Source: Hyphomonadaceae bacterium
GTDB taxonomy: Bacteria; Pseudomonadota; Alphaproteobacteria; Caulobacterales; Hyphomonadaceae
Length of the DNA: 64,000 nucleotides
Direction of reading: 5' to 3'
NCBI GenBank assembly: GCA_024742355.1
Contig: JANSYM010000003.1
Location: 263,351 to 327,350, forward strand
Part shown: piece by piece, positions 46,284-57,896 of the stretch
Layout of the letters: each line of letters starts with the position of its first letter
Position numbering within the stretch: the first letter of the stretch is position 1
Notes under the pieces: model-generated
What the model saw: only the letters and a program-made list of their open reading frames with translations
The model's database searches: none
Told to the model about the DNA's origin: nothing
Translations under genes and position numbers: made by a program

Positions 46284-46823
46284 ATGAGCCAGCGTATTCG
46301 TTTCGCCTTTTACTTCCTGGTGCCGATCATCGTCGTTCTCGACCAATGGTCGAAATCTGCGATTCTGAGCGAACCGAAATTCAATGCGCTCGGCTGTCTC
46401 GATCCGGTGCAGAGGTGCGGTCAGATCGAAGTCGTATCATTTTTTGATCTGACCATGGTCTGGAATCGCGGCGTCAGTTTCGGGATAGGGCAGTCTGAAG
46501 GCGTGATGCGCTGGTTGTTGGTGGCGATGACCACAGCCATCGCGATCGGGTTTTCTGTTTGGCTGTATCGCGCTACGCGGCGCTTTACAGGGCTGGCATT
46601 GGCGCTCGTCATCGGCGGCGCGTTCGGCAACGTGATCGATCGCGTTCGGTTCGGCGCGGTTGTCGACTTTCTCGACTTTAGCGGCATCTTCCGGCCATAT
46701 TTCTTCAATTATGTATTCAATGTCGCCGACGCGGCTATTTCTGTAGGTGCGGTCTTGCTCTTTGTGGATCAGTTCCTAATGTCGCGACAAGACAAAGCGG
46801 CTGGGGCCGTAAACGAAGATTAG
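46284..46823 (+). CDS. lspA: Lipoprotein signal peptidase (signal peptidase II)
   Basis: 179-residue inner-membrane aspartic protease cleaving prolipoproteins before the lipidated Cys. Four TM helices; TMVWNRGVSFGIGQ, and the catalytic Asp motifs VVDFLDF and FNVADAAI are intact. A 15-residue insertion with two Cys (GCLDPVQRCG) follows TM1. One base after ileS, matching the common ileS-lspA operon; services the many lipoproteins seen in this window. Confidence 0.96.
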   Translation: MSQRIRFAFYFLVPIIVVLDQWSKSAILSEPKFNALGCLDPVQRCGQIEVVSFFDLTMVWNRGVSFGIGQSEGVMRWLLVAMTTAIAIGFSVWLYRATRRFTGLALALVIGGAFGNVIDRVRFGAVVDFLDFSGIFRPYFFNYVFNVADAAISVGAVLLFVDQFLMSRQDKAAGAVNED

Positions 46824-46834
46824 GCGAGGACGCC

Positions 46835-47308
46835 ATGAAAAAAACCGCACTGATATTTTCCGCCGGTCTGGCTATGACCCTGGTCACAGGCTGCGCCAGC
46901 TGGAGTGGCAGCAACACGCCCGACGAATTTCGCGTTGTGAAAAAAGCGCCATTGGTGGTGCCGCCAGAATACAGCCTGCGCCCACCGCAAGCGGGGCAAT
47001 CGGAACCCTTCGAGGTTGATGTCGAGCGCGCTGGAACGGCGTCAGCGTTCGGCACCGATATCGGACAGGATGCCAGCGCCGCCGAGCGCGCCCTGGTCTC
47101 AGCGGCTGGCGCCAATGCGGTCAGCCCGGTTATTCGCCAGCAGGTCGACTGGGAAGAAGCCAGCACGATCCGGAAATCTACCAGTATTGCGGACCGAGTG
47201 CTGTTTTGGCAGCGTGACAATGACGAACCCGCTGACAGCGCGACGGGCGGCGCCGAAGTCACCATTGAACGCGGCAGCGGCGAGCGCCTGAAACTGCCGG
47301 GAACCTGA
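46835..47308 (+). CDS. DUF3035 lipoprotein
   Basis: 157 residues: lipoprotein signal MKKTALIFSAGLAMTLVTGC, then TPDEFRVVKKAPLVVPPEYSLRPP, the hallmark of DUF3035 lipoproteins. Length and position between lspA and M16 proteases are conserved in alphaproteobacteria. Function unknown; suspected outer-membrane biogenesis role is inference. The rest is disordered/acidic. Confidence 0.88.
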   Translation: MKKTALIFSAGLAMTLVTGCASWSGSNTPDEFRVVKKAPLVVPPEYSLRPPQAGQSEPFEVDVERAGTASAFGTDIGQDASAAERALVSAAGANAVSPVIRQQVDWEEASTIRKSTSIADRVLFWQRDNDEPADSATGGAEVTIERGSGERLKLPGT

Positions 47309-47349
47309 TCCTGACCCAACATATGAGGGGACAGCACGCGGAGAAACAC

Positions 47350-48711
47350 ATGAAACATTGGATATCTGGCGGGCTGGCCGCCACGGTTTTACTCGGAGGC
47401 ACGGCGTTCGCTGACAATGCCGCTGATGAGTGGGCACCGGAAACGTTCACGCTTGAGAATGGCATGGACGTCATTGTGCTGCCTGATCATCGCGCGCCGG
47501 TCGTGACGCATATGGTCTGGTACAAGGTTGGCGCTGTCGATGAAGATCCCGGCAAGTCCGGCATCGCGCACCTGTTCGAACATGTCATGTTTAAGGAAAC
47601 CGACGATATCGCCGATGGCGAGTTCGATTCCATTATTTCCCGCCTGGGCGGTCAGAACAACGCGTTCACCAGCTGGGACTACACTGCTTATTACGAGCGG
47701 GTCGCGAAGCAGCATCTCGGCAAGATGATGGAGCTCGAAGCCGAGCGCATGACCGACCTGATTATTGATGAGGATCCGGAAGGCAGCTTCATAACCGAGC
47801 GCGATGTCGTCAAAGAAGAGCGACGACAACGGGTCGACAATAATCCAGGCGTGATTCTGCGAGAAAAAGTGCTGGCGGAATTCTGGAAAGGCCATCCTTA
47901 CGAAATCACGGTCATCGGCCGGATGGATGAAGTCGAGGCTCTGACCCCGCAAGACGGAATCGACTTCTACAAGAAATATTACTCGCCGGAGAACGCGATT
48001 CTGGTGGTTGCGGGCGACGTTACCGGTGACGAGGTCAAAACCCTCGCAGAAGAACATTATGGCGCGATCGAACCATCTGGCCTGGTTGATGGGACACGCA
48101 AATGGGCAGACGTGACGCCGCTCAGCGAAACCATCGAAATCACCCACAGCGATCCGAAGGTGCGCCAGCCGGTCTGGTATCGCTATTTTGATGGCACCAG
48201 CCAAAAGCGCGATCGGCAATTCTCGCTGGCGCTCGATGTCGGTTTGGAAGTGCTCGGCGGTGGTAATACCAGCCTGCTTTACGTTGCGCTGGTGGAAGAT
48301 CAAAAGATTGCCGTGAACGCGGGTACGTTTGCCTGGACCGGCCTCCATGACAATGGCCCGGCTGTCGTCTATGCGACACCGAGCCCAGGTGTCTCCATGG
48401 ATGACCTTGAAGCGGCTGTAACGGCCGAACTTGCCAATATCCTGGAAGCCGGTTTCTCGGACGAAGACATTGAACGCGTGCGCAATTCGATGGCAGCGGA
48501 AGCTATCTATGCCCGCGACAGTCAGCAAAGCATGGCCAACCTGTTTGGTGGCTGGGTGGCGATTGGCGGGTCGATTGAAGATCTGATGAGCTATCCGGAC
48601 GATGTCCGGGCGGTGACAACCGAAGAAGCCCTTGCCGCGGTGCGTAAGACGTTCGCTGAAGGCAATCACTATATCGAGGCGCAATTGCTGCCCGCAGAAG
48701 GGGAGCTGTAA
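47350..48711 (+). CDS. M16B zinc metallopeptidase, catalytic subunit
   Basis: 453 residues with signal peptide (MKHWISGGLAATVLLGGTAFA). Inverted zinc motif HLFEH (HxxEH, in GKSGIAHLFEHVMFKET) with the distal Glu further on (SVVKEERRQRVD region) makes this the active chain. Two homologous M16 halves. Start at 47350 (GGAG 6 bases upstream) rather than 47323. Two bases before a second M16 protein lacking the motif, the classical heterodimer arrangement for periplasmic peptide degradation. Confidence 0.93.
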   Translation: MKHWISGGLAATVLLGGTAFADNAADEWAPETFTLENGMDVIVLPDHRAPVVTHMVWYKVGAVDEDPGKSGIAHLFEHVMFKETDDIADGEFDSIISRLGGQNNAFTSWDYTAYYERVAKQHLGKMMELEAERMTDLIIDEDPEGSFITERDVVKEERRQRVDNNPGVILREKVLAEFWKGHPYEITVIGRMDEVEALTPQDGIDFYKKYYSPENAILVVAGDVTGDEVKTLAEEHYGAIEPSGLVDGTRKWADVTPLSETIEITHSDPKVRQPVWYRYFDGTSQKRDRQFSLALDVGLEVLGGGNTSLLYVALVEDQKIAVNAGTFAWTGLHDNGPAVVYATPSPGVSMDDLEAAVTAELANILEAGFSDEDIERVRNSMAAEAIYARDSQQSMANLFGGWVAIGGSIEDLMSYPDDVRAVTTEEALAAVRKTFAEGNHYIEAQLLPAEGEL

Positions 48712-48713
48712 TC

Positions 48714-50135
48714 ATGAAGACTTCAATTCTTTTTGGTGCCGCGACGCTGGCCCTGACCCTGACAGCCTGCTCAACCGCGCTTGTAAGCGATGACACGACT
48801 GCCGACACAGCAGTGAGCGAAGCGCCCGTCGCAGAGGTCGCCGAGCCTGTGGAAGCCGGATTGGCTGTCACGGTTCACGATGGTGAGTTTGCGACCATTC
48901 AGCAATTCGTCACGCCAGGTGGAGTCTCGGTCTGGCTGGTGGAAGAGCCGTCCATTCCGATCCTGTCCCTGCGCATGGCCTGGCAGGCCGGCCGCACCAA
49001 TGATCCGGAAGGCATGGAAGGCCTGACCAATGCCATGGTCTACCATATGAATGAGGGCGCCGGGGACCTCGACGCCCAGGCCTTCTTCAAACGCATGGAA
49101 GAGCTGAACATGAGCTTCTCCTGCAGCGCATCGAACGAAAGCACTTTCTGCAATGCGTCCATGCTGACCGACAATGCCGCCGACTCGTTCGACATGATCG
49201 GGCTCGCCTTTGCCGAGCCGCGCTTCGATGATGGCCCGTTCGAGCGCTATCAGCGTGAGCAGGAAGTCAGTCTGCAAACGCGTGAAACCAATGCGCAATA
49301 TCTGGCAAGCCGGGCGCGGATCGAGGCGCTTTATCCCGATCATCCATATGCGCGCAATACCAGTGCCGAGAGCCTGGCGGCGATCACACAGGACGCGATG
49401 CGGGCGCAAAAGAACCTGTTGATGGTCCGCGAAGGCATGCTGGTCACCGCGGTTGGAGCGATGTCTCCGGAAGAGCTGGCCCCGCTGATTGATGCAGCGG
49501 TTGCCGGGTTGCCAGCCGAGAGCGAAACGGTTGAAGCGGAGAGCGTTGCATTGGCTGCGCCTGCAGCGACGCCAGTAGCTGTCGACCTGCCACAACCGCA
49601 GAGTCTTGTGACTTTCGCCGCCCCGGCAATGACGCGTGAAGATCCGGATTTCTATACCGCTGTGGTTCTCAACTACACATTCGGCGGCGGCGGCTTTGAA
49701 AGTCGCTTGATGAAAGACCTGCGTGTTGAAAAAGGCCTGACTTATGGCGTCTACACCTCCGTCAGTGCTGGCGATAAGCTGCAGCTCTGGAGCGGTGGTG
49801 GTCAGACCAAGAATGAGAGCGCTGGCGAGTTCATCGCGGCGGTCAAAGCCAATATGACCAAAATGGTCGACGAAGGCATGACCGAGCAGGAACTGGCCGA
49901 CGCCAAGTCCTACCTCACCGGGTCGTATCCGCTCGGCTTTGACTCCAACGCAAAGATCGCCGGAAACATGATGGGCATCCGCCTTGATGAATTGCCAGTC
50001 GATTTCTTCGACAAGCGCAATGCCATGGTCGAAGCGGTCACTCTGGAAGATGCAAACCGGGTGGCCCGGGAGTATCTGAGCCCGGACAATTTCACCTTTG
50101 TTGTTGTCGGCGAGCCTGAAGGACTGGACGGATAG
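48714..50135 (+). CDS. M16B peptidase-like lipoprotein, inactive partner
   Basis: 473 residues. Lipoprotein signal (MKTSILFGAATLALTLTAC). Same fold as the preceding gene but the HxxEH site is replaced: GLTNAMVYHMNEGAGDLDAQ has no zinc ligands, while the C-terminal half (FGGGGFESRLMKDLRVEKGLTYGVYTSVSA) keeps the R/Y substrate-binding pair. It most likely forms the noncatalytic chain of the heterodimer and anchors it to the membrane via its lipid. An acidic Ala/Thr linker (about 20-50) follows the Cys. Confidence 0.9.
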   Translation: MKTSILFGAATLALTLTACSTALVSDDTTADTAVSEAPVAEVAEPVEAGLAVTVHDGEFATIQQFVTPGGVSVWLVEEPSIPILSLRMAWQAGRTNDPEGMEGLTNAMVYHMNEGAGDLDAQAFFKRMEELNMSFSCSASNESTFCNASMLTDNAADSFDMIGLAFAEPRFDDGPFERYQREQEVSLQTRETNAQYLASRARIEALYPDHPYARNTSAESLAAITQDAMRAQKNLLMVREGMLVTAVGAMSPEELAPLIDAAVAGLPAESETVEAESVALAAPAATPVAVDLPQPQSLVTFAAPAMTREDPDFYTAVVLNYTFGGGGFESRLMKDLRVEKGLTYGVYTSVSAGDKLQLWSGGGQTKNESAGEFIAAVKANMTKMVDEGMTEQELADAKSYLTGSYPLGFDSNAKIAGNMMGIRLDELPVDFFDKRNAMVEAVTLEDANRVAREYLSPDNFTFVVVGEPEGLDG

Positions 50136-50137
50136 GC

Positions 50138-51739
50138 TTGTTCGATCTGAGCAAATCTGAAAGGGCGCGCGAGACATCGCTGCGCCCTTTCGTGATTTTT
50201 GTGCCCATGGCGATTTTCATCGCAGCGGCCGCCGCGAGCCTGATCAACCTTGATGGTTTCTTCGCGTTCGCGAAACTGTTGAATGACTGGATCCTGGCGA
50301 CCTTCTCAAACGTCATTTCCTGGGCGGTGTTCGGCTTCGTCTTCACCAGTTTCGGCGTCATTCTGACGCCGCTCGGCAAGGTGACGATTGGCGGAGCAGG
50401 GGCCGCGCGCACGCTGCAGCCCTGGAGCTGGTTCTCCATCACCCTGTGCACCACGATCGCCATCGGTATCCTGTTCTGGGCCATGGCCGAGCCGATGTAT
50501 CATCTCTATGAGCCTGGCGGTGCGGCGCGCGGCATCGCGGCTGCCAGCGATGAGGCGAAAGCGTTCAGCCTGGTCACATTGTTCATGAACTGGGCGGTTT
50601 CGCCCTATGCCATCTATACAGTGGCGGCACTCACCTTCGCGCTGGCCTATCACAATCTGGGCAAGCCTTATTCGGTTTCAGGACCGTTCATTGCCCTCCT
50701 TGGTCGCCCTTTGCCGAAACCGGTCGCGGCGTTTCTGGATGCCGCCATCCTGTTGGCGCTGATCATGGGCATGGCAGCGTCTCTGGGCGCAGGCATGCTG
50801 CTTTTGTCAGGCGGTGTGGCGGATATGACCGGATTGCCCAATGGGCCTGTCTTGCTGGCGCTGGTCGCTGCAGCGATTGGCGTAGTCGTCCTGATCAGCT
50901 CGCTGACGGGACTGCTTCGCGGCATTCGCGTGCTCTCAGTGATCAATACCTGGTTCTTTTTCGTCTTTGTCGGCGTGATCCTCCTGTTCGGCCCGACACG
51001 TGAGATTTTCACCCAGGGCGGGGCGGCGATCCTGTCCTATGCAGGCGAGTTTCTCGATCGTTCGCTCTTTATCGGCGCGGCCAGCGATGATGGCGAATGG
51101 GCCAAGGGCTGGACCACGTTCTATTTCGCCAACTGGCTCGCCTGGGCGCCGGTCACGGCGATGTTCCTGGGCCGGATTGCGCGCGGCTACACGGTTCGCG
51201 CCTTCGTCCTCGTCAACCTGATCCTGCCCGCTCTGTTTTCGATGCTGTGGATGAGCGTGTTTGGCGTGTTCGCGATGGAGACCGATTTCGGTCAGGGCGG
51301 CGCGCTTAAACAGACGCTCGATACTGTAGGTCCGGAAGGCGTCATGTTTCGCGCGCTGGATTACATCCCGCTGACCAGCCTGCTTATCCCGGTTGTTCTG
51401 ATCCTGTCTTTCATCTCATACGTCACGGCTGCCGACAGCAATACCGAAGCGATCTCGCAAATCTGCAAGACCCATGATGCGCCGATGACCGAAGCGGATG
51501 AGACCGAGCCAACGGCGCCGCGACTGAAGATCATCTGGGTCATCCTGCTCTGCCTGATGGCCTGGATCATGGTCGCATTCAGCGGCATTGATGGTGTGCG
51601 CATGTTGTCAAATGTCGGCGGGTTGCCGGCGCTATTTGTCGTTCTGGGATTGCAGGTCTGCCTGATCCGAATGGTGTTTCAGGCCGAAGCGCTCGATCGA
51701 ATGCATCCGGCGGACGCCGGGACGACAGAAAACGTCTAA
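50138..51739 (+). CDS. BCCT-family transporter
   Basis: 533 residues, about 12 TM. Core WSWFSITLCTTIAIGILFWAMAEPMYHLYEP and FYFANWLAWAPVTAMFLGRIARGYTVRAFVLVNLILPALFSMLWMSVFG match the betaine/carnitine/choline transporter family; the signature Trp-box is divergent, so substrate is open. The annotated start is TTG 2 bases after the M16 stop; a later ATG (50207) is in TM1. Its stop overlaps by 4 bases that of the convergent TIR-ParA gene. Confidence 0.88.
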   Translation: MFDLSKSERARETSLRPFVIFVPMAIFIAAAAASLINLDGFFAFAKLLNDWILATFSNVISWAVFGFVFTSFGVILTPLGKVTIGGAGAARTLQPWSWFSITLCTTIAIGILFWAMAEPMYHLYEPGGAARGIAAASDEAKAFSLVTLFMNWAVSPYAIYTVAALTFALAYHNLGKPYSVSGPFIALLGRPLPKPVAAFLDAAILLALIMGMAASLGAGMLLLSGGVADMTGLPNGPVLLALVAAAIGVVVLISSLTGLLRGIRVLSVINTWFFFVFVGVILLFGPTREIFTQGGAAILSYAGEFLDRSLFIGAASDDGEWAKGWTTFYFANWLAWAPVTAMFLGRIARGYTVRAFVLVNLILPALFSMLWMSVFGVFAMETDFGQGGALKQTLDTVGPEGVMFRALDYIPLTSLLIPVVLILSFISYVTAADSNTEAISQICKTHDAPMTEADETEPTAPRLKIIWVILLCLMAWIMVAFSGIDGVRMLSNVGGLPALFVVLGLQVCLIRMVFQAEALDRMHPADAGTTENV

Positions 51740-53043
51740 GCGTCGACCAGCTTTTTCAGTTCAGCCGCGATACCCTTCAAGGTTTCACGCATCCGCTTCA
51801 ATCCGCCGCCGCGGCCATTGTGAATGACCAGCTGTTTCCACGGCGCACCTTCAGGGTCCGGCGTTTTGACATTGAGATGCCCTGAGCGCGGGAGCGCGCT
51901 GCTGAGCAGAGCTCCGGCAAGGTCGAACCCTGCCTGGGCATTGAAGGTGCCATTGCGGGCGTCGGCTTCAAAATTGGATTGTTCCGACCGGCCGACCGCA
52001 TTGAACAGGATGGACAGATCCGGTCGTTTCTCATCGCTGATCTGCTCCCGCATCACCTGGTTGAGCAGCTTCACGCCGCGCAGAGAATAAACATCGGCAT
52101 GCATCGGCGCGAGGACGCGGTCCGCGGCTTCCAGAGCGCACCGGGTCAGGAAAGTCGCATTCGGATTGGTGTCGAACACGATCAAATCATATTCGCTGCG
52201 ATAATAGTCGATCATGCGCCGGAAATTCGAGCCAACCAGCGCCAGCGCTTCTGGCCCTTTGGCAAACGCATACTTTGAGATCTCAAACTGTCCCGAAATG
52301 AGATCAAAACGCCCGCTCGGCGCCTCTTCACCAGCCAGGATGTCGTGGGCGATCACATCGCGTTCGGCCGGTTCGAACGGTTCGGTATTGATCTCCGACC
52401 AGCTTTCAGACGGCGAGACAGTATCATAGGCGTGCAGGCGCGAGCGTTCGAATAGCGAGATCACGGATTTATCTCGCGCCGAGCTCGCATCAGCATGCTC
52501 CATGTCGAAAAAGGTCTGGGTGAGATTATATTGCGGATCGAGATCGATCAGCAGCATGCGTCCACCGAGACTCGCCTGCCAGGTGCCGAACACCTGGCTG
52601 CTGATAGTGGTCTTGCCGACACCGCCTTTCAGATTCATCACCGAAATGACGGGACAGCGGCGCTCATAACGATCCTTCACCTGCTGCACCAGGCGCTCCA
52701 GCGCGCCGTCATCGCTCAGAGAGTCGGTCAACTGGTCGGCGAGGAGCGTTTTGAACTGTTTTGACAGCCGCGCATTGTCCGCCCGGATCGGAAACAGTTT
52801 CAGGCCGCGCTCATGGGCGATCTCCAACTGTTCCTGAACCGCTTTCGAACGGATCGATGAGGCTGAGACCAGCACCACCATGCCAAATGCGTCATCAATC
52901 GCTTCCTTGACCGAGTCCGGCTCAAAATCCTTGCTTCCGGCCGGTGTATACCAGGTCGGAATCGAGGCGCGGCGCATGGCTTCATGCACTTGCAGAAGCG
53001 GATCTACATCACGATGACCGTGGGCAATAAAGAGTTGCGACAT
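51736..53043 (-). CDS. TIR-like domain fused to ParA/MinD-type ATPase
   Basis: 435 residues, two domains. Residues 1-90 look like a TIR domain: LFIAHGHRDVDPLLQVHEAMRRASIPTWY, SVKEAIDDAFGMVVLVSASSIRSK, QLEIAHERGLKLFPIRAD. In SKAVQEQLEIA (66-76) the position of the usual NADase Glu reads Gln72 by my alignment, with Glu71 and Glu74 beside it. After a linker, residues 130-435 are a ParA ATPase with deviant Walker A KGGVGKTT (139-146), Walker A' LIDLDPQ and Walker B LIVFDTNPN. No ParB or partition site is seen nearby. TIR domains sense or signal in immunity; a regulatory or defence role is inferred. I know of no well-studied protein of this design. Confidence 0.85.
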   Translation of the reverse strand: MSQLFIAHGHRDVDPLLQVHEAMRRASIPTWYTPAGSKDFEPDSVKEAIDDAFGMVVLVSASSIRSKAVQEQLEIAHERGLKLFPIRADNARLSKQFKTLLADQLTDSLSDDGALERLVQQVKDRYERRCPVISVMNLKGGVGKTTISSQVFGTWQASLGGRMLLIDLDPQYNLTQTFFDMEHADASSARDKSVISLFERSRLHAYDTVSPSESWSEINTEPFEPAERDVIAHDILAGEEAPSGRFDLISGQFEISKYAFAKGPEALALVGSNFRRMIDYYRSEYDLIVFDTNPNATFLTRCALEAADRVLAPMHADVYSLRGVKLLNQVMREQISDEKRPDLSILFNAVGRSEQSNFEADARNGTFNAQAGFDLAGALLSSALPRSGHLNVKTPDPEGAPWKQLVIHNGRGGGLKRMRETLKGIAAELKKLVDA

Positions 53044-53129
53044 TTACAAGGCATCCAACTGGGAGGTTTTGCGCTATTATCCGTATTCTTGGAGCGCCAC
53101 AATTTCATGTCATATCGGCAGGGTAAAGC

Positions 53130-53158
53130 TTGATTGTGTGACATTGCCTGTGCATAAA
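53130..53158 (+). promoter_or_regulatory. Candidate aroG promoter
   Basis: TTGATT (53130-53135), 17 bases, CATAAA (53153-53158), followed by AAGGAG before the DAHP synthase ATG. On the opposite strand a GATAAT (53081-53076) could serve the divergent TIR-ParA gene, whose ATG lacks a clear Shine-Dalgarno. Confidence 0.35.
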
Positions 53159-53180
53159 GCGCGACCTTAAGGAGAAGCCC

Positions 53181-54560
53181 ATGACCTGGACGCCAAGCAG
53201 CTGGCGCGCACGCCCGGCAAAGCACATCCCGGAAGACTATCCGGACCTCGCGCATCTGAAAGATGTCGAGCAGCGTCTGGCTGAGTTTCCGCCGCTCGTT
53301 TTTGCCGGTGAAGTCCGGACCCTGAAACAGCGTCTGGCGAGTGTCGCGGCCGGCGAGGCCTTCCTGCTGCAGGGCGGTGATTGCGCCGAGAGCTTCAAGG
53401 AGTTCAGCGCCGACAATATTCGCGACACGTTGCGCGTATTGCTGCAAATGGCGGTTGTTCTGACCTATGCGGCGTCCAAGCCCGTGGTCAAAGTCGGCCG
53501 CCTCGCAGGACAGTTCGGCAAGCCACGTTCTTCGCCGGTGGAAGAGATTGATGGCGTCACGCTGCCCTCCTATCGCGGCGATAATATCAATGGCATGGAC
53601 TTTACCGAAGGTTCGCGCAGGCCAGATCCAGAGCGTCTGATCCAGGCTTACTCGCAATCCGCATCGACCTTGAACCTGGTCCGCGCCTTCTCGCGTGGTG
53701 GCTATGCGGATCTCTCCAATGTTCACCAATGGATGCTCGGCTTTGTTGATCGCTCTCCCCTGGGCGAGCGCTACCGCAACATGGCTGACAAGATCAGCGA
53801 CGCGCTGGATTTCATGCGCGCATGTGGGGTGACCTCTCAGGAAGTCCCGCAAATGGCACAGGTTGAGGTCTACACCTCGCATGAAGCGCTGTTGCTTGGC
53901 TATGAAGAGGCGATGACGCGGATCGATTCCACGTCAGGCGACTGGTATGACACTTCAGCTCACATGCTGTGGATCGGCCACCGCACGCGTCAGGTCGATC
54001 ACGCGCATGTTGAGTTCTGCAAAGGCGTCAAAAACCCGATCGGCATGAAATGTGGCCCTGGCCTCGAGGCAGATGAGTTGCTGCGCATCATCGATACGCT
54101 CAACCCGGACAATGAAGCTGGCCGGATCACGCTGATTTCGCGTTTCGGCGCGGAAGGGGTTGCTGACGGTCTTGCCCCGCTCGCCAAGGCGGTGAAGGAA
54201 AGCGGGCGCACTGTTGTCTGGTCTTGCGACCCGATGCACGGCAATACGCTAAAAACCGAGTCTGGCTACAAGACCCGCCCGGTTGATCATATACTCGCCG
54301 AAGTGCGCGGCTTTATCGACGTGCTCAATGCCGAGGGCTGTGTGCCGGGCGGTGTGCATTTCGAAATGACTGGCCAGGATGTCACTGAGTGTATTGGCGG
54401 CGCGCAGGCGATTTCAGAAGCCGACCTGTCATCAAGATATCACACTCATTGTGATCCTCGCCTAAATGGCGAACAAGCTCTTGAACTTGCCTTCCTGATC
54501 GCCGAGAAGCTCCTGGAGATTAAGGACGTTTCCACCATGCCATCACGTGTAGCCGGATAA
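53181..54560 (+). CDS. aroG: Class II (plant-type) 3-deoxy-7-phosphoheptulonate synthase
   Basis: 459 residues, condensing PEP and erythrose-4-phosphate, the first step of the shikimate pathway. Class II hallmarks: [26 protein letters not shown] (metal-binding Cys), [16 protein letters not shown] and [28 protein letters not shown]. The unrelated E. coli-type class I enzyme is not present. AAGGAG precedes the ATG. A MATE exporter follows after 15 bases. Confidence 0.96.
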
Positions 54561-54575
54561 ACAGGACGTTTGACC

Positions 54576-55994
54576 ATGACCCAGCGGGCATGGCCCGCCT
54601 GGGCGCGGGCCTCTGAAATTCTAGACCTTTTGCGGCTGTCAGGACCGATTGCGATCTCACGCCTGTCGTGGATGTTGATGGGCCTGACGGATGCGATCGT
54701 GCTCGGCCAGGTCAAAGGTCAGGAGCACGAGCTCGCTTTTATCCTGAATTCCTGGCTGCCGATCGGGGTGACGCTCGGCTTCGGCATGGGCATCCTGCTC
54801 GGTGTACAGGTGCTGACCTCGGAACTGGTCGGGCGGCATGAGGAACACATGTCCGGCCGGATCTTCCGGCGCGGAATGGGCTGGGCTGTGCTGATCGGGA
54901 TTGCCGTCACCGCCATCGTTTACCTGATCGCTGCGCCACTGTTTGATTTGCTATTCGTGCAGATCAATCCGAACGAGAATATTAGCGCTTCGATGACGCC
55001 GGATGAATTTGCGTCAGAGACAGCCCTGATCACCCAGATCCTGTCGCTCAGCTTGCTGGGCTTCATGATCTCGACTGTGTGCAGCTACTATCTGGAGGCG
55101 CTGCGTCGCCCGCTGATCGTCACGATCACGTCTTACCTGGGCGTCGGCGTGAACCTGGTGATCGACCTTGCATTCGTGCTCGGATGGTGGGGCATGCCGC
55201 AAATGGGCGGCGAAGGCGTCGCCTGGGCGACGGTTGGCTCGCGCTGGGCGATTACGTTCGCGCTGATTGGCTTTGTGATCTGGCTGACACCGGCCTTGAA
55301 GCCATCTGAACCAGGCCCTGAAGACGAAGGGACGCGCCAGATGACTGTGGGCGGCGGCACGGCGATCTCGAATGTTGCGGAGTGGGGCGGGTTCAACCTG
55401 ACCTATACAATCGCGGCCTTTGTCAGCGTCGCCGTCAATGCCGTCTATGGCTATTCCGTACAGATCATGGGCTTCTGTTTCATGTTCTTCCTCGGCATTG
55501 GCACCGCAACCAGTGTGCGCGTGGCCGAACATGTCGGGCGCGGCGATCTGCAAGGCGTCAAGGATGCGTCCCGTCTCGGGGTAGCGGCGACATTCGTGCT
55601 CGGCACGATGCTGGCTTTGCTGATCTATGCGTTCAAGGACGGCGTCGCGCTACTGCTGGTCAATTCAGAGGCGAGCATTGATGGCACCATGTTGGCGCCC
55701 GCGATTGCGGCGATGCTTATCTATGCCGCGCTGGCGACGACCTTTGACGGATTGCAGGCGACGGCCTCGATGGCGCTGCGAGCACAAGGCGTCGTCTGGC
55801 TGCCATCTGCCATCCACATCGCATCCTTCTTCGCGCTGATGATTCCGCTTTGCTACATCATGGCGGTGACCATGGGGCGCGGCGTGCAGGGCATGATGGA
55901 AGCTGTGACGATTACCCTGCTGGTTGCCGGTGGTTTGCAATGGGCATTGCTGGAATGGAAAACGGCGTGCCGCGAAGTGCGACACGCCGTTTAA
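54576..55994 (+). CDS. MATE-family efflux transporter
   Basis: 472 residues with about 12 TM helices in two six-helix bundles; start region RLSGPIAISRLSWMLMGLTDAIVLGQVKG and HxGRGDLQGVKDASRLG segment fit the MATE (NorM/DinF) family that exports cations or drugs with Na+ or H+. The start is ATG 54576; a TTG two codons before is less likely. Closely follows aroG. Specificity unknown. Confidence 0.92.
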   Translation: MTQRAWPAWARASEILDLLRLSGPIAISRLSWMLMGLTDAIVLGQVKGQEHELAFILNSWLPIGVTLGFGMGILLGVQVLTSELVGRHEEHMSGRIFRRGMGWAVLIGIAVTAIVYLIAAPLFDLLFVQINPNENISASMTPDEFASETALITQILSLSLLGFMISTVCSYYLEALRRPLIVTITSYLGVGVNLVIDLAFVLGWWGMPQMGGEGVAWATVGSRWAITFALIGFVIWLTPALKPSEPGPEDEGTRQMTVGGGTAISNVAEWGGFNLTYTIAAFVSVAVNAVYGYSVQIMGFCFMFFLGIGTATSVRVAEHVGRGDLQGVKDASRLGVAATFVLGTMLALLIYAFKDGVALLLVNSEASIDGTMLAPAIAAMLIYAALATTFDGLQATASMALRAQGVVWLPSAIHIASFFALMIPLCYIMAVTMGRGVQGMMEAVTITLLVAGGLQWALLEWKTACREVRHAV

Positions 55995-55995
55995 T
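55960..55995. terminator. Terminator-like hairpin at the end of the MATE gene
   Basis: AAACGGCGTG (55960-55969) and CACGCCGTTT (55983-55992): 10 perfect pairs, including the last codons of the MATE gene. The minus strand reads GTTTTCC after it, so it could end both the MATE transcript and the convergent HU transcript. Confidence 0.6.
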
Positions 55996-56018
55996 AAGGA
56001 TCGCTTTCGCGAGTGACC

Positions 56019-56285
56019 TTAGATGTCTTTCAGAGCGGAAGCCGGTCTGAAAGCCGCAGAGGTTTTCTCTTTGATCTGGATGGTCTCGCCAGTCGCAGGG
56101 TTGCGACCTTCACGTGCGCCGCGAGTTTTCGCGACGAAAGTTCCGAAACCGGCAATAGCCACAGAGTCACGGCTCTTCACCGCGCCTGAGATTGAATCAA
56201 AGACAGCGTCCACGGCACGGCCAGCATCGGCCTGAGACATGTCTGCTGCTTCTGCAACTGCTTTGGTCAGTTCACCCTTGTTCAT
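56019..56285 (-). CDS. hup: DNA-binding protein HU
   Basis: 88-residue histone-like protein (MNKGELTKAVAEAADMSQADAGRAVDAVF, GFGTFVAKTRGAREGRNPATGE), binding and bending DNA as a dimer. AGGGAGAG before the ATG fixes the start at 56285. Usually highly expressed; the 105-base upstream gap contains its promoter, though only an inverted repeat was picked out there. Confidence 0.97.
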   Translation of the reverse strand: MNKGELTKAVAEAADMSQADAGRAVDAVFDSISGAVKSRDSVAIAGFGTFVAKTRGAREGRNPATGETIQIKEKTSAAFRPASALKDI

Positions 56286-56353
56286 TGGGCTCTCCCTTAG
56301 TTCAACGGCCCTAGTTGCCGTTGAGGGCATTGTTCATGATTCGAATGGGCCGT

Positions 56354-56386
56354 GAATCCCGTAAACCCAATAAATACGGGGGATTC
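56354..56386. repeat. Inverted repeat upstream of hup
   Basis: GAATCCCGTA (56354-56363) and TACGGGGGATTC (56375-56386): ten pairs with a 2-base bulge, between the hup gene and the stop of the following minus-strand gene. Without T-run, so either an operator-like site for hup or a weak terminator of the gene upstream. Confidence 0.4.
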
Positions 56387-56390
56387 AGCG

Positions 56391-57305
56391 TTATTTTGCT
56401 AAAATCCACCCTTCTTCGGCGATAATTCTGTGTTTTTCTCTACCAGAAATTGAATCGGGGGAATCGAAGGCGCCACCGAGGATTCCGGCCGAATCGAGCG
56501 ATTCGAGGCGTTCTGAGAGCGTTCTGACTTGCGCCTGATCGAGGATTTCTCCGGATTTGGGCGCCACTGGAACCGTGCTGGGATAGACTTCAGCGAGGAT
56601 ACAGGATGTGTTTTCGAGGCTTTTCGCGGTGAATTCGGCGAGTCCCGTTTCAAATGGCCAGAGCTGCGCGCCAGGAATTTGATCGCGCAATTCGGCGACC
56701 GTGGCGATCCCGAGCAACGACTGAGACCCGACTGCACCTGCGCCAACCAATTGCCAAACGGATTTCGGATACGCCTTGAACGTCGATCTGATCCACGCTT
56801 CGGCAAGGCGGTGCTCGTGCAATGAGTCAGGAGAAGAGAAGTCGCCCTTGCGCGCGGACAATGTCTCTGACGCCCGGGACGCAGGCGCGCCCCAGAATGG
56901 ATGCGCGCGTCCGGTCATGGCTGCGTTCAATTCGGCGGCGAGATCGAACCGCGTATTGGAATTGTCTTCGCGCTCGGCGATGTTGCGCGCGAGATAGTCA
57001 TGCATCGCGCGCCAGGGTGGGGCAGCGCTGACATCCAGCCCAATCGCCTCGGCCGTGCCTGCGGGATAGCCCATGGCAAAATCGAACCCGATGAGGACAC
57101 GTTGTCCACGGCTGATGCAGTCTTCGGCCAGCGCAAGAACACGCCGCCGCGCCGCCAGTCGCGTGTGCGGGTTCTCACTTGTGAATGATGAAATGCCATC
57201 AGCAGTGCGGGTGCGGACGCCGATCCAGATCGAGTTTGCACCTGAAACAGGTCTCGCCGCAGCACTCCAGTCGACGATGATATAGGCGTCGAAGAGCGGT
57301 GCCAT
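56391..57305 (-). CDS. Uncharacterised DUF429-like protein
   Basis: 304 residues, cytoplasmic. Starts MAPLFDAYIIVDWSAAARP, with a DWS motif and alternating strands (VLIGFDFAMGYP) that recall the RNase H-like DUF429 fold, seen in some predicted nucleases and molybdopterin/cobalamin-annotated proteins; Asp12 and Asp75-region acidic residues could form a site. I do not assign a function. Runs in a minus-strand group with the next gene (3 bases apart). Confidence 0.7.
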   Translation of the reverse strand: MAPLFDAYIIVDWSAAARPVSGANSIWIGVRTRTADGISSFTSENPHTRLAARRRVLALAEDCISRGQRVLIGFDFAMGYPAGTAEAIGLDVSAAPPWRAMHDYLARNIAEREDNSNTRFDLAAELNAAMTGRAHPFWGAPASRASETLSARKGDFSSPDSLHEHRLAEAWIRSTFKAYPKSVWQLVGAGAVGSQSLLGIATVAELRDQIPGAQLWPFETGLAEFTAKSLENTSCILAEVYPSTVPVAPKSGEILDQAQVRTLSERLESLDSAGILGGAFDSPDSISGREKHRIIAEEGWILAK

Positions 57306-57308
57306 CGA

Positions 57309-57896
57309 CTAGAATACGACGTCAGCGATGGGCTCGAGGCGTTTGCAAATGTCTTCGGTTTTTGCGTGCTCGGCCTGGATGGCATTCAACGCGCCTTCGC
57401 GCCGCTCCCGCAAGGATTCCAGTTCTTGTTCGAGAATGTTCTGTTTGGCCTCGGTCAGGGCTTCGGCGTGCTTGAGTTCTTTCTCAAGCTCAGCGATTTC
57501 ACGGGAGTCTTCGTTCAGCGCCACGAGAGGCACCATCTCGGTGAGGAAGTGAACATGAATATCCTGCCGCAAGACGGTGTCGCGCAATTCGAACAGGCGT
57601 TCGCGATTGCGCTCATAGATCGCCGCTTCGTTAAGCGCCGTACGAAACAGCCGGACGCTAACCGCGCCCCAGCGATCGCCGATCTCCAGCGACGCAAACG
57701 CGCGATCGAGAACGCGATCGACCGAGGCCAGGATCTCTCCGAAGAACCGCGCCGCATCGCGTTCCTTGCGCTTCTGGCCCAGCCGATCCTGGACCAGCTC
57801 TGCCACCATAGCGCCGCCCGTCGCCAGGACTGCACCGACAATCACCGCCAGCAATGTGTCGAGATTGTCGATATAGTCGAAAACGGACTGGCGCAT
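57309..57896 (-). CDS. Membrane-anchored coiled-coil protein, unknown
   Basis: 195 residues: one N-terminal TM helix (about 14-34, LLAVIVGAVLATGGAMVAELV), a mid region (DRVLDRAFASLEIGDRWGAVSVR) and a long E/L/A-rich coiled coil (about 125-180). No known family. Preceded on the same strand by the MDR oxidoreductase (26 bases) and followed by the DUF429-like gene; a shared transcript is likely. Confidence 0.65.
   Translation of the reverse strand: MRQSVFDYIDNLDTLLAVIVGAVLATGGAMVAELVQDRLGQKRKERDAARFFGEILASVDRVLDRAFASLEIGDRWGAVSVRLFRTALNEAAIYERNRERLFELRDTVLRQDIHVHFLTEMVPLVALNEDSREIAELEKELKHAEALTEAKQNILEQELESLRERREGALNAIQAEHAKTEDICKRLEPIADVVF

Follow-up and report, generated by a model that had tools for sequence, protein, structure and literature searches.

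An orphan ParA/MinD-type ATPase fused to a TIR domain with a substituted catalytic glutamate beside aroG in Hyphomonadaceae

A single gene in a 64,000-nucleotide stretch of DNA from a marine Hyphomonadaceae bacterium (GenBank assembly GCA_024742355.1, contig JANSYM010000003.1, positions 263,351 to 327,350; hereafter the window) joins a Toll/interleukin-1 receptor (TIR)-like domain to a ParA/MinD-type ATPase. Our preferred interpretation, to which we give about an even chance of being right, is that this protein, TIR-ParA, is an orphan ParA/MinD-type ATPase whose enzyme-dead TIR domain would serve as an adaptor or self-assembly module. The preliminary description of the window, made from its sequence alone, had recognized the 435-residue chain at 51736..53043. 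We found the frame intact, with an ATG start, 435 amino acids plus stop and no internal stops, and located it on the minus strand, which that description had not given. The N-terminal TIR-like domain comprises residues 1–128 (52660..53043, minus strand) and scores 30.7 bits for Pfam TIR_2 over residues 5–118 (gathering score 28). The ParA/MinD-type ATPase domain occupies residues 129–435 (51739..52659, minus strand) and matches AAA_31 (ParA) from residue 132 with 89.4 bits against a cut-off of 27. Full-length counterparts of 430–452 amino acids were found in 43 distinct genomes, counting that of the window, and a divergent member, L030, adds a 44th. Because these counterparts align over both halves, a chance, mis-assembled or frameshifted fusion was ruled out. 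No description of a TIR-ParA fusion was found in searches of open-access PubMed Central (PMC) papers.

To place the N-terminal half, we compared it with TIR profiles and structures. When genomes of the window's own genus were searched, all 17 full-length copies passed the TIR_2 cut-off with their TIR part, and some members from outside the genus fell below it (L026, 22.1 bits; L179, 25.9; L180, 24.4). A profile built from 11 TIR parts of the family, leaving out the canonical TIR of L030, matched solely TIR structures at E ≤ 0.1, with 7uxr at 1.3e-4, Cat1 at 0.0047, 3h16 at 0.024 and AbTIR at 0.034 and 0.067. The TIR part of a homologue, L007, which is 44% identical to that of the window protein, reached a predicted local distance difference test (pLDDT) score of 73.8 in the best of five models. 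Among the 50 Protein Data Bank matches listed for this model, 49 were TIR domains or TIR-bearing proteins, and 8 had E ≤ 0.001. Structural support for the predicted TIR fold therefore comes from a single well-scoring homologue model. The N-terminal TIR-like domain of the preliminary description is thus borne out by a TIR_2 score above cut-off, and residues 1–90, for which it had named a non-TIR fold as refuting, proved TIR-like by both the profile and the homologue model.

Bacterial TIR NADases, enzymes that consume nicotinamide adenine dinucleotide (NAD), mostly rely on a Glu that belongs to the WxxxE motif in helix C, according to a published account (PMC11374754). The family TIR profile, again without L030, aligned column 72 with this Glu, which lies within SDWCWDELE of Cat1 and NWTEYELN of 7uxr. 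The window protein carries Gln72 in this column (codon 52828..52830, minus strand), confirming that the residue earlier singled out lies at the usual catalytic position, and has Ala68 in the Trp column of the motif. Across a 46-row comparison, column 72 was Gln in 20 rows, Asp in 24 and Glu in 2; the rows represent 44 distinct genomes of the 67 with a match, since L155 and L166 come from the same genomes as L007 and L020. The two Glu rows are the two most divergent members, L179 (genome G839), found at the locus shared by the others, and L030 (genome G033), found elsewhere. It had also been suggested that a shifted residue, Glu71 or Glu74, might take over catalysis, but neither Glu is conserved in the alignment. 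A quick tree with L030 as its root requires at minimum two changes at column 72, a count that comes from a tree with several weak forks, two long-branch outgroups and column 72 itself among its data.

The TIR half is the more variable of the two, with a mean pairwise identity of 0.525 against 0.696 for the ParA half (990 pairs). The BB-loop region at residues 34–48 is the most variable stretch of the protein, with a mean entropy of 2.36, compared with 0.33–0.37 around Walker A and B (45 rows). Nei-Gojobori ratios of non-synonymous to synonymous substitution rates (dN/dS) were 0–0.26 for the TIR half and 0.01–0.14 for the ParA half, a table limited by saturated or undefined dS, since 14 of the 16 pairs computed were defined per half and many dS values exceeded 1. 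Judged from these alignments, the TIR half evolves faster than the ParA half, yet it is clearly maintained, and both halves are under purifying selection where this is measurable. Taken together, the sequences indicate a decayed catalytic site in a TIR domain that is itself maintained, and we predict that the TIR of TIR-ParA is probably NADase-dead.

The nucleotide-binding motifs of the ParA half are intact. The deviant Walker A motif KGGVGKTT lies at residues 139–146 (52606..52629, minus strand), with the signature lysines Lys139 and Lys144, and the Walker B region DLIVFDTNPNA at residues 286–296 (52156..52188, minus strand). In an 11-row alignment that includes the divergent L030, K139, G140, G141, G143, K144, T145, the Walker A' aspartates D167 and D169, and the Walker B-region residues D286, D291 and P294 were all invariant, and both Walker A and Walker B appear intact in all 46 rows. 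The claim of a complete ParA/MinD ATPase with Walker A at residues 139–146 therefore stands, the motif positions being as described and the AAA_31 score well above its cut-off. In a Foldseek search with the full-length model (mean pLDDT 63.5, about 70–93 across most of the conserved ParA core), the top matches were ParA/Soj, the best with E = 5.5e-12. Near the C terminus, a GRGGGL motif at residues 410–415 (51799..51816, minus strand) was invariant in a 21-row alignment, reads SRGGGL in L182 and is not kept in L179 and L030. It is part of an LVIHxGRGGGL-type motif at residues 405–418 (window about 51790–51831).

The window's own genome also encodes a separate chromosomal-type parA, whose neighbours we take to be mnmG- and rsmG-like, and a mipZ (376.6 bits). 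The ATPase of TIR-ParA therefore probably has a job other than that of these dedicated genes. A further orphan ParA-like ATPase of 307 amino acids is encoded in the same genome (L002:1495-2418, contig C3 of G000), for which the best NCBIfam model is ParA_partition, at 78.3 bits against a cut-off of 180.

To determine how widely the fusion occurs, we searched the 105 genomes of the GTDB family with the 11-row profile (E ≤ 1e-24) and obtained a match in 67, two of which were contig-end fragments. TIR-ParA was present in 19 of 29 genomes of the window's own genus and in 41 of the 42 listed for genus g5; 18 genomes without a match are unlisted, so g5 could hold more. An evenly drawn sample of the class gave matches in 4 of 385 genomes at E ≤ 1e-20, two of them full-length, both from this family, and two to ParA only. 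When L030 served as the query, matches at 1e-15 came from 3 of 398 genomes sampled across the phylum, all again in this family. Both of these wider searches scored no more than four candidates per genome, so a fusion in a ParA-rich genome could be missed. No place on a mobile element covered at least 80% of the query, neither among 1117 matched plasmid records (nor 154 plasmids with the L030 query) nor among 11 matched phage records. In the best 80 of 208 viral-contig relatives, matches start at residue 115 or later, except in L108, where the match starts at residue 88. A TIR domain was seen in none of the six such relatives with longer N-terminal regions that were scanned, and viral scans with the TIR part alone gave zero matches. 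On the records and relatives covered here, mobile elements were rejected as carriers of the fusion.

The gene also occupies a fixed position. We examined 43 loci, leaving out L030 and the two repeats; in one of them, L170, the sequence ends before aroG, and in all 42 that could be checked aroG lies divergently at about 137–175 bp. The glutathione reductase gene gor is convergent within 400 bp of TIR-ParA in 28 of the 43 loci. In 7 of the 10 aroG loci that we read from genomes lacking TIR-ParA, gor and aroG are directly adjacent (L172–L177 and L189). As for the other three, L171 has a different gene before aroG, gor was not recognized in L178 (a 6.7-kb contig), and in L187, the aroG locus of G033, the slot holds a TIR-less ParA of 283 amino acids with an overlapping 122-amino-acid open reading frame (L187:9977-11193 for the two together). 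The aroG loci of G004, G014 and G016 lie outside the ten read. Because the position is fixed and the gene is cleanly absent between gor and aroG, TIR-ParA looks vertically inherited at a fixed locus rather than a mobile defence gene, and its occurrence suggests that it behaves like a dispensable, lineage-specific cellular gene. The genome-wide search for TIR-ParA fusions and their neighbours proposed in the preliminary description thus led to one family and, L030 apart, one fixed aroG locus; none of the close homologues is a partition protein of a plasmid or chromosome.

These data are consistent with a model in which the ParA part would dimerize with ATP on the nucleoid or membrane and would be cycled off by hydrolysis. 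The TIR part would bind a cargo, a partner or other TIR domains, perhaps through TIR–TIR contacts; cargo would thereby be spaced, clustered or positioned in the cell, and the partner would be encoded elsewhere. The earlier idea of a non-enzymatic scaffold holds up here, together with the substituted catalytic Glu and both domain calls. Known protein cargoes of ParA-like ATPases include chemoreceptor arrays and carboxysomes. As CheW is missing from the window's genome (it is present in 2 of 29 genomes of the genus) and bacterial microcompartment (BMC) proteins from all 29, these two cargoes are unlikely here.

Several points weigh against our interpretation. In an AlphaFold model of the full window protein, made from a 30-row alignment, the TIR part reached a pLDDT of only about 40, and the other four models of the L007 TIR part were poor (47–55). 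The Asp found at column 72 in 24 of 46 rows is no proof of inactivity, and because two divergent members, L179 and L030, keep Glu, the ancestor may have been an enzyme. The gene is not essential, since no match was found in 10 of the 29 genomes of the genus. Its constant neighbour is aroG alone, no cargo or partner was identified, and positioning, dimerization and DNA or membrane binding are all inferred for this protein.

The main rival is a role in chromosome segregation or division, in which TIR-ParA would be a MipZ- or ParA-like regulator, the TIR domain would tune ParA self-assembly and the cargo would be DNA or the division machinery. The ParA half is nearest in fold to chromosomal and plasmid ParA/Soj, and 26 of 46 rows, from most of g5 and some members of the window's genus, have a GANTC site of the CcrM type 51–67 bases ahead of the TIR-ParA start codon (chance level unassessed). 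However, GANTC is absent from the window's own intergenic region (53044–53180) and could serve aroG where it occurs. At a similar place, four sister loci lacking TIR-ParA (L174, L175, L176 and L189) have GATTG, as read by eye. For Hyphomonas, a published report (PMC6650430) further calls the motor driving DNA through the stalk unknown and states that ParA was not observed there. Yet the equation of g5 with Hyphomonas is itself inferred, dedicated parA and mipZ genes are present elsewhere in the window's genome, and a third of the genus (10 of 29 genomes) lacks TIR-ParA. Henriciella, which is not known to bud, has TIR-ParA too. On balance we consider this role unlikely. An anti-phage system, in which ParA would sense infection and gate a TIR NADase or cyclic ADP-ribose cyclase, appears less probable still. 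TIR domains are common defence effectors, some members of the genus are rich in TIR_2 matches, with up to 16 in one genome, and L030 keeps a canonical WxxxE-type TIR (67.6 bits) next to an overlapping open reading frame of 140 amino acids. Against this, the catalytic Glu is lost in 44 of 46 rows, the locus is a fixed housekeeping one, no plasmid or phage match covers 80% of the query, and no TIR was seen in the 80 viral-contig relatives kept. PADLOC models (E ≤ 0.001), run on the window's neighbours and not on those in other genomes, matched none of the ten, and the best score of the protein itself was 15.7 bits (E = 0.0015), from the TIR part alone. The absence of a defence island noted earlier thus held for these ten neighbours. 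Of the immune reading in the preliminary description, the TIR domain itself is real, and the immune framing is weakened because the gene occupies a housekeeping locus in a single family, has no defence gene among its ten neighbours and matches no PADLOC model well.

Two further explanations concern the surroundings of the gene. That TIR-ParA acts together with the divergent aroG, for example by regulating or positioning its product, 3-deoxy-D-arabino-heptulosonate 7-phosphate (DAHP) synthase, would fit the spacing of about 137–175 bp kept in 42 of 42 loci. However, sister genomes have aroG without TIR-ParA, and in several of them a promoter-like stretch (TGTGGTAAAACTTG) remains beside aroG, as judged by eye. 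As this stretch is kept beside aroG in genomes without the fusion, it probably belongs to aroG, and we regard a joint function as very improbable. If the gene were instead a partition gene left behind in the chromosome by a plasmid or mobile element, this would account for its ParA superfamily membership and the weak NCBIfam partition matches. These matches fall far short of the cut-offs (70.5 against 180 bits and 56.3 against 348), none of the 1117 plasmid records reached 80% coverage, the locus is fixed, and Pfam detected no ParB domain among the ten neighbouring open reading frames. Two of the ten are without any Pfam match, so a divergent small partner is possible, and parS was not searched for. 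The lack of ParB and of a plasmid context, also stated in the preliminary description, was thus confirmed for Pfam-detectable ParB and for plasmid records at this coverage. A plasmid partition protein is largely refuted by these results, and of the four rivals we give this one the least credence.

Compared with known systems, our preferred reading of an orphan ATPase with a TIR adaptor places TIR-ParA closest to the ParA/MinD (A/D) positioning ATPases (ParA/Soj, MipZ, McdA and ParC/PpfA), with which it shares the deviant Walker A, A' and B motifs, the ParA fold and an orphan location. It differs from them by its N-terminal TIR domain and the lack of a recognized partner, and its own genome is without CheW and BMC. 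TadZ/CpaE proteins are ParA-like ATPases with an N-terminal receiver-like domain, and their layout, a flavodoxin-like domain ahead of the ATPase, resembles that of TIR-ParA. In contrast to these, the N terminus of TIR-ParA matches TIR and not Response_reg (none at E ≤ 1), TIGR03815, at 24.5, stays below its cut-off of 154.45, and Pfam found pilus-assembly genes in none of the ten neighbours. A receiver domain in place of TIR was rejected, as Pfam and fold comparisons both returned TIR. With the bacterial TIR NADases AbTIR, Cat1, SPARTA TIR-APAZ and ThsB, TIR-ParA has the TIR fold and box 1 motif in common, whereas it has lost the catalytic Glu in 44 of 46 rows, is fused to ParA and has no recognized partner gene. 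It matched no model of Thoeris or other TIR defence systems well, and none of the ten neighbours matched a defence model at E ≤ 0.001. The PADLOC candidate PDC-M28B (about 438 amino acids) is similar in length and in having an N-terminal region followed by a ParA-like ATPase. However, the single member tested is an ATPase with a KGGVGR motif (NF047398, 202.9 bits), a motif that can also be read by eye in a second member, and TIR-ParA scores 14.1 bits over residues 111–169 only. This different ATPase motif and partial match ruled out TIR-ParA as a PDC-M28B. At E ≤ 1e-40, PDC-M28B was found in 15 of 299 genomes and not in the window's own. In predicted conflict systems, MinD/ParA-like domains are described as inactive in a published account (PMC7159879); TIR-ParA shows the reverse, an intact ATPase and a substituted TIR site.

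In the window, TIR-ParA stands alone between a transporter and aroG, as had been described. The transporter gene (50138..51739, plus strand) converges on TIR-ParA, with a 4-base overlap at the stop of the latter, and belongs to the BCCT family (PF02028, 353.8 bits against 27), scoring below the cut-offs of narrower NCBIfam models. On the other side, the intergenic region (53044..53180, no strand), whose length is kept at about 137–175 bp in relatives, leads to aroG (53181..54560, plus strand), the constant divergent neighbour, which encodes a class II DAHP synthase (TIGR01358, 731 bits against 614.7; also PF01474). The ten neighbouring open reading frames (46284–57896) comprise, by Pfam, a signal peptidase II, a DUF3035 protein, two M16 peptidases, the BCCT transporter, the DAHP synthase, a MatE protein, an HU-type DNA-binding protein and the two without a match. 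The genome as a whole is 3.46 Mb in 18 contigs. About 10 kb before the window, a canonical-looking TIR_2 match of 75.9 bits lies in an open frame of 514 amino acids (G000:C1:253110-253433).

The divergent member L030 (L030:1291-3140, at about 1244707–1246556 of contig C1 of G033) is encoded away from the aroG locus and reads SEWVKKE at the motif of its canonical TIR. The 140-amino-acid open reading frame that follows it overlaps by 4 bases and has no Pfam match above cut-off; the two genes are a possible two-gene system. As a general partner of TIR-ParA this open reading frame was rejected, being present in 1 of 105 genomes of the family, its own.

Orphan ParA/MinD ATPases whose partners have not been identified are a recognized class of positioning systems, according to a published account (PMC10241942), and we count TIR-ParA among them. 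The surprise is its presumably domesticated TIR. In bacteria, TIR domains are chiefly familiar as defence or virulence modules that consume NAD. As a more tentative proposal, which we hold with less confidence than the adaptor interpretation itself, an immune-type TIR enzyme may have been domesticated into a permanent non-enzymatic ParA adaptor. The family would then have a spatial system of its own, TIR–TIR or TIR–partner assembly would be coupled to the ParA ATP cycle, and the series of Glu-to-Gln/Asp replacements would record the loss of activity. The relatives that keep Glu, the relatives without the gene and the fixed locus make this idea directly testable. If true, TIR-ParA would be a natural example of an immune enzyme that became domesticated, and its TIR domain, kept under purifying selection across the family after the loss of the catalytic Glu, would give ParA systems a new type of adaptor.

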